64,000 nt of DNA from Pseudoalteromonas sp. 3D05. Lineage in GTDB: Bacteria; Pseudomonadota; Gammaproteobacteria; Enterobacterales; Alteromonadaceae. Below, in pieces: positions 30,916 through 33,014 of this stretch; within the stretch, counting starts at the first letter, position 1, and every line of letters begins with the position of its first letter. The DNA lies in contig NZ_PDUS01000011.1 in NCBI RefSeq assembly GCF_002723455.1, forward strand, positions 76,203 to 140,202. Direction: 5' to 3'. A model generated the notes under the pieces. That model saw nothing but the letters and a program-made list of their open reading frames with translations. It had not been told where the DNA came from and made no database searches. Made by a program: the position numbers and the translations under genes.

Positions 30916-31049
30916 GTAAAAAGCGTTACACATAGACTAAGTGAATAAGTCTTAACTTAATCTGTCAGGTTTGACTTTTAGATTTTGATCAATCTGACAG
31001 TCGCATAGTGCCAATTGCGGACACTCATAAACTTAGTCGCTTTTTACAC
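30916..31049 (-). repeat. Decayed attC-like end of the second cassette
   Basis: On the minus strand the stop TAG of the membrane-protein gene is followed by CA and CGTGTAA. This is the complement of the TTACACG that opens this cassette and has the same stop-CA-R'' layout as the first cassette. An imperfect long inverted repeat spans the segment: GTAAAAAGCGACTAAGT on one side, ACTTAGT and CGCTTTTTAC on the other, with 10 extra bases. The AAC/GTT triplets needed for recombination are lost (AAA, and TAC), so it is probably inactive. Confidence 0.4.
30931..30970 (+). repeat. Left copy of a diverged 37-40 base inverted repeat
   Basis: Contains AAGTGAATAAGTCTTAACTT followed by AATCTGTCAG. About 29 of 37 positions match the reverse complement of 32976-33014. 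The pair brackets the cassette island. A partial third copy (ATCTGACAG at 30992-31000) lies next to it. It resembles an insertion-sequence end but no transposase is nearby. Confidence 0.5.
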
Positions 31050-31052
31050 GTG

Positions 31053-31526
31053 CTATATAGTGGGCCAAAACATTTCCTCATACTTCTCACCGTTCTCACT
31101 TTCCCAAGTTAACTTAACTTGATACTTTTTGGGGCTTCCCGTGTGTATTCCCGCTAAGAGCTTAACTCTTGAGTTTGCCTTTATCTCTTGGTGAGGAAAC
31201 TTATCTTTTAGGTCATGAGATGACAAAGGACTATCTTCGCAATCGACTAGCTCAAAATTGACATTGTAGGCACTACCGTGTCCTGTGTTGGAAATATAAA
31301 AGTTGTAAGACTTACCAAGCTTCGTGAGATTTACATTGAATTTTGGCTTCGTTCTATTTGATTTTTCTTCTGCGATACTTTCAATTTGAAGCCTAGATAG
31401 CTCAGCGGTGATCCTTTCAAGTTCTAAATGTTCTTTAGCTAACTTCCTTGTGCGCATCAAAGATACGGTAGAAATTATCGCTGCCAAAGCAGATACAAGT
31501 AAGCTTAGAGTTTCAAACTTACTCAT
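31053..31526 (-). CDS. Hypothetical membrane-anchored protein in cassette 2
   Basis: 157 aa, not recognised. One hydrophobic N-terminal segment (residues about 5-22, LSLLVSALAAIISTVSLM) is followed by a basic helical stretch (RKLAKEHLELERITAELS) and a beta-rich domain (about 60-157) containing FNVNLTKLGKSYNFYISNTG. Probably anchored in the inner membrane with the domain on the cytoplasmic side, judging by the Arg/Lys after the helix. Its ATG overlaps the TGA of the zinc-ribbon gene by 4 bases, so the two are co-translated. The stop TAG is followed two bases later by a cassette-end motif. Confidence 0.6.
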   Translation of the reverse strand: MSKFETLSLLVSALAAIISTVSLMRTRKLAKEHLELERITAELSRLQIESIAEEKSNRTKPKFNVNLTKLGKSYNFYISNTGHGSAYNVNFELVDCEDSPLSSHDLKDKFPHQEIKANSRVKLLAGIHTGSPKKYQVKLTWESENGEKYEEMFWPTI

Positions 31527-31759
31527 TTAAAACGCCCCTTAAATGTTTTCTTGAGCATTTTTTCAATTTCTGCCTTCGCTTCAGGAATGACGACTTCTTT
31601 AGCTTGCTCAATACCCACTTCTTTTAGGTCTGCCAACATGATTTTAAAATGACAGCTATTACATTTCACGAAGTCGTCATCTTTTGGGTTTTCTGGTTGC
31701 TCAAATTCAGTATGTCCACACTGGGGGCATTGAATAGATATATGGTCAGTTTTAATCAC
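31523..31759 (-). CDS. Small zinc-ribbon protein in cassette 2
   Basis: 78 aa with two CxxC knuckles, CPQCGH (11-16) and CNSCHF (33-38), forming a zinc ribbon. An alpha-helical basic tail (IEKMLKKTFKGRFK) follows. GTG start with AAGGAG six bases upstream. It opens cassette 2, 16 bases after the attC-like site, and its stop overlaps the start of the membrane-anchored protein. Zinc ribbons of this kind often bind nucleic acid or protein; no specific function is claimed. Confidence 0.65.
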   Translation of the reverse strand: MIKTDHISIQCPQCGHTEFEQPENPKDDDFVKCNSCHFKIMLADLKEVGIEQAKEVVIPEAKAEIEKMLKKTFKGRFK

Positions 31760-31774
31760 GATATCTCCTTGTAC

Positions 31775-31874
31775 GTGTAACGATAAACTAAGCGGAAAAA
31801 TACAATTTGGCTAAAATTAGCGAGGTACGAGCAAAAGCTAACTGTAGTTTTTCCGATTAAGTGCCTTGTTAAGT
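31775..31874 (-). repeat. attC-like recombination site of cassette 1
   Basis: Reading the minus strand: R'' ACTTAAC fits RYYYAAC exactly, then AAGGCACTTAATCGGAAAAA, about 45 central bases, TTTTTCCGCTTAGTTTATC, and R' GTTACAC, which fits GTTRRRY at 6 of 7 positions. The inner arms pair imperfectly, as attC stems do, and the site is 100 bases long. It starts two bases after the stop of the tetratricopeptide gene. R'' is the exact complement of the GTTAAGT that precedes that gene. Confidence 0.65.
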
Positions 31875-31876
31875 TG

Positions 31877-32692
31877 CTAGTACTCTACTTTTTGCAAACG
31901 GCGCTGAGCAGTGTCTTTGTAGAAACTATCAGTATCACCTGCTTTTGTGATAATGGTATTCAGCCACAAACGAGTATTTGCCCAGTCTTTTTGACTCCAA
32001 TAAGCTTGTGCAATTTGATAGCGGAAAGCTTGTAACGTAGAAGCTTTTGAAAATTGCGTTTCAAGCTCCTTAAAAGCTTTTAGAACCTGAGGCATGTATT
32101 TGGCAAAATCTTCTTCAACACCAAATCTAGAACCATATTGGCCGCGCTCTTTCCAACCCAAAAGAGTTCTTATTTTTTCTTCGTAGGCGATTCTTGCTGC
32201 TTTGCTATTTGGGAATTCAGTAATCGTTTTGTCATACCATTTGTTAGCTGTTTCTACTTTTGGAATCCAACTAGAGTCAATTGTAAAACGACTATCTTTA
32301 TCTGATGACCAAAAATCCGCGTGTTTTAAATAAGATGCAGCGATTGCATTATCTACAGACTCTTTAGCACTTTCGCCTACTATTTCAGATAACTGATCAA
32401 TTTTATTTTTAACTGATTTAGCTTCATTTGAAGAGGGGTATTTAAGAGAGAGTTGAGTCCATGTTTTTAAGGCTTGTGTGACTTGATTACTTTCAAATGA
32501 GACTCTCCCTAATTCATAGTAGGCTTTAGCTTTGTTGGAGTCTGATGTTTTACTAAATATAATATCAATTAACTCAATCTTAGCCTGGTCTTTCAAACCA
32601 TGCTCAGATAGAACCTTTGCCTTTTCAAGAGACGCTGCATAGGAGCTTGTAATAACAAGCGATAAACTTAAAGCGATAATTGTTTTTTTCAT
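31877..32692 (-). CDS. Periplasmic TPR-like repeat protein in cassette 1
   Basis: 271 aa with an N-terminal signal peptide (MKKTIIALSLSLVITSSYA) and presumed cleavage after SYA, so exported. The mature part is helical with tetratricopeptide-like units (AKAYYELGRVSFESNQVTQA; later FRYQIAQAYWSQKDW). The longer in-frame start 14 codons upstream would hide the signal peptide; the ATG at 32692 follows GGAAGAA and is chosen. It is the only gene of cassette 1, flanked by 13-base inverted repeats at 31867-31879 and 32729-32741. Likely a protein-interaction scaffold; function unknown. Confidence 0.75.
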   Translation of the reverse strand: MKKTIIALSLSLVITSSYAASLEKAKVLSEHGLKDQAKIELIDIIFSKTSDSNKAKAYYELGRVSFESNQVTQALKTWTQLSLKYPSSNEAKSVKNKIDQLSEIVGESAKESVDNAIAASYLKHADFWSSDKDSRFTIDSSWIPKVETANKWYDKTITEFPNSKAARIAYEEKIRTLLGWKERGQYGSRFGVEEDFAKYMPQVLKAFKELETQFSKASTLQAFRYQIAQAYWSQKDWANTRLWLNTIITKAGDTDSFYKDTAQRRLQKVEY

Positions 32693-32733
32693 GATTCTTC
32701 CTTGGCTTAGATTGATACTGAATATAGATAGCA

Positions 32734-32870
32734 ACTTAACAGCTTATTGAACACCATTTGGGTGGTTTATAACACACTAAAACGGCGTATATTACAGACC
32801 TTGATAATTTCACCAATAATTACTTTTGTAAACAAGTAATTAAAGTGGCTGAGAATTACGCTTGTTATTT
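32734..32870 (-). repeat. attC-like site preceding cassette 1
   Basis: On the minus strand it runs from AAATAAC (weak R'') to GTTAAGT (perfect GTTRRRY). The arms TAACAAGC...CAGCCA and TGG..TG...GCTGTTA pair with two unpaired bases on one side, as in folded attC bottom strands. The length of 137 is within the known range. The centre holds a 9-bp hairpin TAATTACTT/AAGTAATTA (32817-32842). A 14-base direct repeat CACYAAAACGGCGT lies at 32775-32788 and 32873-32886. No intact cassette precedes it. Confidence 0.45.
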
Positions 32871-32974
32871 TGCACCAAAACGGCGTTTAATAATGCTATT
32901 GGACAAAATTAGATTTCTACTTAAAACATAGGAATAAATTTAACTTTTGCAGTGTTCGTTAATCGCTCATGGCT

Positions 32975-33014
32975 GTCTGTCAGATGAAGTCTAAACCTAT
33001 TCACTTAATCTGTA
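32975..33014 (-). repeat. Right copy of the diverged inverted repeat
   Basis: Minus strand TTAAGTGAATAGGTTTAGAC followed by TTCATCTGACAG, matching the copy at 30931-30970 in opposite orientation. On the plus strand it reads TGTCAGATGAAGTC. Together the pair encloses about 2 kb. The rest of 32870-33047 shows no gene. Confidence 0.5.

Follow-up and report, generated by a model that had tools for sequence, protein, structure and literature searches.

A two-gene integron cassette behind an integrase-less attI platform in Pseudoalteromonas sp. 3D05, a candidate anti-phage module

Two tandem cassettes and a crippled attC

The window analyzed here is a 64,000-nucleotide stretch of the Pseudoalteromonas sp. 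3D05 genome. On its minus strand, between a DUF4112 gene (33416 to 33048) and epmC (30834 to 30280), lie two cassettes in tandem. The features of the region are as follows:

32737 to 32969, minus strand: leader without intI ("type B") that opens with TGAGCGATTAACGAACACTG and is scattered through the genus
32737 to 32911, minus strand: attI/Pc module, 77% identical to the segment from intI to the first cassette in Pseudoalteromonas sp. MMG010
31781 to 32739, minus strand: cassette 1, a single gene with a TPR match
31775 to 31875, minus strand: attC1, the attC of cassette 1 (covariance model R1; 66.5 bits; E = 4.3 × 10−15)
31032 to 31780, minus strand: cassette 2, which extends from TTACACG through the final G ahead of the right boundary
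31760 to 31780, minus strand: leader of cassette 2, 21 nt, with AAGGAG at 31770 to 31765 and scant space for a promoter
31523 to 31759, minus strand: gene for a 78-aa zinc-ribbon protein of the ECs_2282 family, with a GTG start at 31759
31053 to 31526, minus strand: gene for a 157-aa membrane protein with a phrog_6723 match
31032 to 31050, minus strand: crippled attC2, with R'' GTGTAA(A) plus AAGCGACTAAG and the 3' half missing
31008 to 31031, minus strand: right end of the platform, TTTATGAGTGTCCGCAATTGGCAC

The gene of cassette 1 encodes 285 aa from a TTG at 32734 (alternative start, ATG at 32692), and its product appears by eye to carry a signal peptide. The first-pass annotation had described cassette 2 as a unit opening with TTACACG right after the first attC-like site, holding two genes overlapping by ATGA and ending in TAG, CA, and the complement of its own start. 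We recovered each of these elements: TTACACG at 31780 to 31774, immediately past G31781 of attC1; the two overlapping genes at 31759 to 31523 and 31526 to 31053; and TAG (31055 to 31053), CA, and CGTGTAA (31050 to 31044). The same relation between cassette start and R'' extends in cassette 1 over 13 nt with 100% complementarity. Given G|TT borders and a start complementary to R'' (TTACACG/CGTGTAA), as in integron cassettes generally, cassette 2 is almost certainly an integron gene cassette.

We built a covariance model from 17 attCs in arrays of the same genome and of the sister genome G005, with the window site excluded. Across 20 sources, the model gave 53 matches at E values up to 1, exactly one of which, attC1, fell in the window. 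Folded alone as single-stranded DNA, attC1 was unremarkable in stability relative to shuffled sequences (z = −1.4 and −1.5); judged by its sequence, it is a real attC. At the end of cassette 2, the model returned no match at E values up to 1. Since the window copy reads CACGTGTAAA where the usual cassette end in homologues reads CACGTGTAAC, the AAC of R'' has been lost (AAC to AAA), and this comparison bears out the earlier view that the attC2 core had decayed. About 19 nt of the 5' half are left (31050 to 31032), followed by G|TTTATGAGTGTCCGC.

The long inverted arms that had been read as the rest of attC2 fared differently, as did the limit of 30916 drawn for the unit, which is wrong: cassette 2 stops at about 31032 and the platform at about 31008. 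We rejected the arms of 30916 to 31051 as an attC2, since the distal arm (30916 to 30941) is part of the flank. The sister genome G005, with an EpmC of 99% identity, has the same flank next to different cassettes and behind other sequence; the left side of this place in G005 carries other cassettes (143 and 276 aa) up to a contig end that falls, by eye, inside a transposase-like gene. Alignment of the attC2 remnant with the reverse complement of the flank scored 10, and when the flank was shuffled with its dinucleotides preserved, 17 of 400 shuffles reached that score, so that shuffled sequence pairs equally well. The 135 nt of the inverted-arm region gave a folding z score of −4.2, a value that includes the flank's own hairpins.

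Two further repeats were observed. A 35-nt inverted repeat with 80% complementarity (30934 to 30968 and 32977 to 33011) flanks the two-cassette unit and is kept in G005; its left part (query positions 1 to 73) is a separate dispersed repeat that also precedes a Gabija locus in another genome of the genus, G014. In the sister genome G005 (L062 and L069), the same GAGGCTGTAGAATTACT comes after three attCs, starting at GTT, and looks like an insertion element targeting the attC crossover.

An attI/Pc head without integrase, dispersed in the genus

The leader upstream of cassette 1 ends CAATAAGCTG|TTA. Because its last 175 nt are those that match the intI-to-first-cassette segment of MMG010, we took the leader to be attI plus Pc; the same 175 nt are likewise 77% identical to a segment beside an intI fragment in the 3D05 genome itself. 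The intI side of the MMG010 segment carries a LexA-like box (by eye), and in the window the sequence beginning TGAGCGATTAACGAACACTG stands in place of intI and the LexA part. A candidate Pc consists of TTTACA (32832 to 32827), a 17-nt spacer, and AATTAT (32809 to 32804), with similar sites seen by eye in other leaders, although a promoter consensus scan of the region ran at chance level (7 found, 5.9 expected).

We found no IntI match in the window, which thus holds an attI without the adjacent intI of a complete integron. Elsewhere in the genome, there is an open intI on another contig (C40:42657-43604), a second, near-full-length intI with two stops, and a 74-residue intI fragment. The attI region of the C40 integron showed no match to the window leader.

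Some part of the 299-nt leader was matched in 85 of 108 genomes of the genus. Near-full copies, defined as starting no later than query position 70 and reaching at least position 292, with six candidates scored per genome, numbered at least 39 in at least 27 of the 108 genomes, the window included. From these searches we fetched 20 copies (19 near-full and one starting at position 82) in stretches of 3.0 to 7.4 kb. None of the 20 stretches contained an IntI match at or above 38% identity, and 9 contained a covariance-model attC at E values up to 0.1, which in one case lay on the opposite strand. These 20 copies, the window, and the loci L062, L064, L065, L067, and L077 made up 26 units for inspection. 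A right end like TGTCCGCTTATGGCAC was present in 14 of the 26, window included; the G005 unit has its right end on a different contig (L063), and this end was excluded from the count. Five of the 14 right ends follow a longer attC-like stretch (a model match in L125 and L130, by eye in three), 8, window included, follow a short site like TAACAAGAGTCTAAG|GTTACGAC, and 1 is unclear. The left and right ends of the units form imperfect inverted repeats of about 19 nt, and inspection by eye revealed no convincing target-site duplications. In the window (31050 to 31031), as in L126, L129, L131, L134, L135, L137, and L138, the last gene thus ends in a short site of the TAACAAGAGTCTAAG|GTTACGAC type, with variants, and without a full attC. 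In origin, such terminal sites are perhaps akin to the delta-attI sites treated in PMC12901181.

The cargo of the units was compared with PADLOC models at E values up to 10−5. Among first genes, 4 of 18 were matched, compared to 0 of 5 control genes from the window. Counted by unit, 7 of 18 had a match, a biased rate, since size or a defense-like look had guided the choice of 10 of the genes scanned. These counts omit L119 to L122 (near-copies with no notable gene behind attI), L138 (which holds the same cargo as L135, both being among the 8 units with short sites), L062, L077, and the window, whose three cassette proteins had no defense match in PADLOC. Overall, the cargo of the intI-less units (L064, L065, L067, L077, and L119 to L138) was varied, with AriA/AriB, a CBASS cyclase, Drt4, or ThsB in several of them.

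A search of the open PMC literature, judged from titles and the beginnings of abstracts, returned nothing on intI-less attI units in Pseudoalteromonas. The repetition of an attI head lacking intI through the genus is the unusual part of the finding. If such heads indeed exist in many copies per genus, one integrase could serve scattered cassette ports, and cassettes would thereby be placed beside a promoter at several loci at once. We also entertain, with more doubt than confidence, a broader proposal: that Pseudoalteromonas harbors satellite integrons (an attI/Pc head, no integrase, and short imperfect inverted repeats at the ends) that move within the chromosome or are copied to other places in it, load cassettes through a chromosomal IntI supplied in trans, and act as defense islands, the window being one of them and cassette 2 a new two-protein anti-phage system found across about ten genera.

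A zinc-ribbon and membrane-protein pair that travels together

The 78-aa protein carries CPQC...CNSC, followed by helices and a basic tail, and it matched NF047912 (the NCBIfam model for ECs_2282 zinc-binding proteins) at 40.9 bits, above the curated cutoff of 37. Its predicted structure (pLDDT 69.8) comprises a zinc ribbon and two C-terminal helices, with RNA polymerase and ribosomal ribbons as the nearest folds in Foldseek (E of at least 0.09; best, 0.094). The 157-aa protein matched PHROG 6723 (phrog_6723; E = 1.3 × 10−21). In its AlphaFold model (pLDDT 71.6, pTM 0.44), a helix at residues 3 to 56, the first part of which is the predicted membrane span, precedes an Ig-like beta domain at residues 63 to 153 with a poorly defined middle; the Foldseek matches were weak and Ig-like, the best being an archaeal pilin (E = 0.011). 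The family matches and predicted models thus agree with the zinc ribbon and one-helix, beta-domain protein proposed in the first-pass annotation. The structure and remote-homology check that it had called for delivered the domain layout and the families, whereas the fold searches were weak, and for both model-based comparisons there is no reading past the type of fold. No solved structure matched the sequence of the 157-aa protein at an E value below 0.1, and with the zinc-ribbon profile the top matches were designed repeat proteins or generic ribbons. DUF8453 did not match the 157-aa protein in the copies of Pfam and NCBIfam searched; the label is carried by one record of a distant Escherichia coli homolog. 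Positive charges mark the cytosolic side of a membrane span (the positive-inside rule), and since the residues RTRK follow the span of the 157-aa protein, its sequence suggests that the beta domain is cytosolic.

A scan of 84,980 species genomes yielded 11 loci with the pair; together with G091, G073, and a Moellerella plasmid, these constitute 14 close homologs (L084 and G285 were taken as one genome). In all 14, the zinc-ribbon gene lies directly upstream of the membrane-protein gene, with a 4-nt overlap in 12 and a 1-nt gap in 2. Protein sizes are 77 to 81 aa for the zinc ribbon and 155 to 157 aa for the membrane protein. The membrane protein is 54 to 90% identical in these homologs and the zinc ribbon is better conserved (79 to 94%, but 70% in two Psychrobacter species). 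A copy from Motiliproteus is 90% and 94% identical to the window pair, in which both reading frames are open. In 8 of the 11 loci, the membrane-protein gene is followed directly by an attC that begins 3 to 5 positions past the stop and scores 25.6 to 73.5 bits; because homologs possess this site, cassette 2 reads as a cassette that lost its own. Another locus, L082, has an attC-like stretch by eye, with no covariance-model match. An attC of 38.4 bits also follows the pair in G073, which belongs to another family of the same order, and in G091 the pair sits inside an array, with a weak attC after it (19.8 bits; E = 0.059). Homologs therefore travel as a pair in cassettes, one of the settings that the first-pass annotation had proposed to check.

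An integron integrase gene was present within the fetched flank of the pair in 4 of the 11 loci (L078, L079, L080, and L084). It is open or intact in L080 and L084 and damaged in L078 and L079; in L078 it is interrupted and the last 183 residues alone are open. The catalysis of integron integrases depends on a tyrosine near the end of the protein; the intI of L079 is open for 307 aa, and its end departs from the usual tyrosine-bearing form. L079 is MMG010 itself, in which the same cassette (86%) stands in an array behind intI and the same attI module. In two Psychrobacter species (L081 and L088), the pair occupies one chromosomal place between the same two genes, a 467-aa fumarase-like gene (by eye) and a gene of 270 to 271 aa, and the covariance model found no attC after it. 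This may be a resident form, possibly the ancestor or a captured copy. The first-pass annotation had named single housekeeping genes in syntenic positions as the contrary pattern. The genus does not display it, with any match to the pair in 3 of 60 sampled genomes (own included), and Psychrobacter approaches it in part, syntenic though still paired.

More distant versions were detected in several settings. The two other matching genomes among the 60 have homologs of 27 to 28% identity: in G014 the membrane protein is accompanied by a zinc ribbon, and in G046 the membrane gene, without a zinc ribbon, is the first cassette behind an attI head. Among 369 genomes of the class, PHROG 6723 matched 4 and the ECs_2282 model scored above its cutoff in 3 (G000, G285, and G419), all of which have the two genes side by side. 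The Klebsiella version (27% identical to the window in the membrane protein, 32% in the zinc ribbon), searched as DNA against 5,426 E. coli genomes, matched 104 of them, 79 over at least 80% of the query. Inspection covered five regions of E. coli and one from a ColV plasmid. Strain 16843 carries the pair inside a filamentous prophage, alongside its genes for replication, coat, Zot-domain, and secretin proteins; in 510016, it lies in an IS-damaged relative of that prophage; and in F11, the membrane gene alone takes the corresponding position. In LD93-1 and two plasmids, the pair is behind an ISNCY transposase. The covariance model found no attC in five E. coli stretches. The prophages of F11 (L146) and 16843 (L148) are tandem filamentous prophages, with a cargo slot filled by the pair or by the membrane gene alone.

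A phage origin was considered for the pair and set aside: tblastn searches of phage records with both proteins and their Klebsiella versions were negative, and a scan of IMG/VR viral contigs gave 66 pattern hits with zero relatives. Across the window, Rfam returned no family at gathering thresholds.

Possible function and relation to known systems

Distant versions of the pair have PADLOC-named defense genes nearby in 5 of 9 partly scanned contexts, a raw count uncorrected for background. In G014, the pair adjoins HsdR (type I R), two ThsB-like TIR genes, GajA, and GajB, and in G419, SIR2 and HerA lie about 5.5 kb away in the same stretch. On plasmids, the pair is beside HsdR (type I R) and AbiJ in Moellerella, beside PD-T4-5-like and Ppl-like genes in Serratia, and beside AbiTii in Klebsiella. 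The first set of neighbors (G014, G419, and Moellerella) came from contexts chosen as already looking defense-like. A second set of 10 further neighbors from Serratia, Klebsiella, E. coli, and Psychrobacter gave 3 clear matches (two in Serratia and one in Klebsiella), one generic UvrD match, which was the only one on the E. coli plasmid, and 6 without a match; the scanned neighbors in LD93-1, the 16843 prophage, and Psychrobacter had none. Against PADLOC 2.0.0, the 157-aa protein had no match and the 78-aa protein had generic zinc-ribbon scores alone. Because the distant pairs adjoin defense genes and sit in filamentous prophages, anti-phage defense is the best reading of the pair, at about even confidence. 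Counting against it are the negative PADLOC result for the pair, the failure to find relatives in phage records and viral contigs (prophage copies do exist), the contexts whose scanned neighbors gave no defense match, the weak fold-search hits, and the resident-looking pair in Psychrobacter.

We lean slightly toward the following account as a whole: cassette 2 is a promoterless two-gene operon, captured by an integrase-less attI platform and probably fixed there, whose protein pair is most likely anti-phage. Transcription from Pc would read through cassette 1 into cassette 2 and yield both proteins. With the R'' AAC and the 3' half gone from attC2, excision of cassette 2 at the right border should be blocked, so that the pair is probably fixed in this place. 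The one-helix protein would be anchored in the inner membrane and expose its coiled helix and beta domain to the cytosol, where the zinc-ribbon protein may interact with it as a partner that senses or binds some mark of infection, either nucleic acid or protein. Acting jointly at the membrane, the two might stop the infection or damage the infected cell.

A lesser but appreciable possibility is that the same cassette encodes a pair for some other accessory task, such as envelope stress or metal or membrane homeostasis, and that integrons, plasmids, and prophages carry it as passive cargo. The syntenic pair in the two Psychrobacter species looks resident, the pair matches nothing in the defense library, 3 of the 9 contexts had no defense match among scanned neighbors and a fourth had the generic one only, and most cassettes in the Vibrio screens, by the account in PMC12409362, gave no defense. 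The defense genes in the other five contexts and the cargo slot in E. coli filamentous prophages nevertheless argue for the anti-phage role.

The first-pass annotation had suggested a toxin-antitoxin or defense module. The contexts of the distant versions favor the second half of this suggestion. In the first, the zinc ribbon would be the antitoxin and the membrane protein the toxin of an addiction module stabilizing the array, as a small overlapping pair with the smaller gene first would allow, a membrane toxin being plausible. Addiction cassettes usually bring their own promoter, however, and the 21 nt before the first start codon of cassette 2 leave little room for one, so that toxin-antitoxin looks less likely than defense; no promoter-like site was scored in these 21 nt by the consensus scan, which ran at chance level over the region. 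Moreover, the membrane gene is found with no zinc ribbon in E. coli F11 and in G046, where it forms the first cassette after attI. Occurrence in integrons, defense-gene neighborhoods, filamentous prophages, and plasmids likewise fits phage defense or superinfection exclusion better than addiction, which we consider improbable. That cassette 2 is a dead remnant, unexpressed or useless in this genome, would accord with a crippled attC2, the second array position, and a window without an IntI match, but it is very improbable given two open reading frames so close to the Motiliproteus copy and a Pc-like site upstream that is present in other leaders too.

If the anti-phage reading holds, the pair would be a compact two-gene system, found in integrons, filamentous prophages, and plasmids, that is missing from the 2023 defense library. 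Cassettes of this kind are already known, and the pair has names (ECs_2282 and DUF8453), while our literature search found no paper on either and no function for the pair. Cassette 2 resembles the cassettes of sedentary chromosomal integrons in its G|TT borders, R''/R' complementarity, the neighboring attC1, the attI/Pc head, and apparently promoterless ORFs of unknown function, and it differs in having two genes, a crippled attC of its own, and no intI in cis. Arrays without intI are known as CALIN in IntegronFinder usage (PMC9024848, in its treatment of such arrays); the window array likewise bears an attC without intI but differs in its attI/Pc module, in ends shared with other units, and in having one detectable attC, fewer than the default of two. 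In Acinetobacter, MITE-flanked class 1 integrons have been described (PMC10969869). The ECs_2282/DUF8453 pair of E. coli prophages and plasmids, many copies of which are near-identical in DNA to the Klebsiella version, has the same two-protein layout as the window pair; unlike the window cassette, it resides in filamentous prophages or behind ISNCY transposases. Integron cassettes serve as defense stores in Vibrio, where, by the summary in PMC12409362, phage resistance was obtained from at least 16 of 179 cassettes (88 expressed) of one integron and 9 of 57 of another. Those antiphage cassettes (Darracq 2025; Getz; Kieffer; via PMC12409362) hold small defense genes, as we propose for the window pair, a candidate only, which differs from them in matching no PADLOC model.
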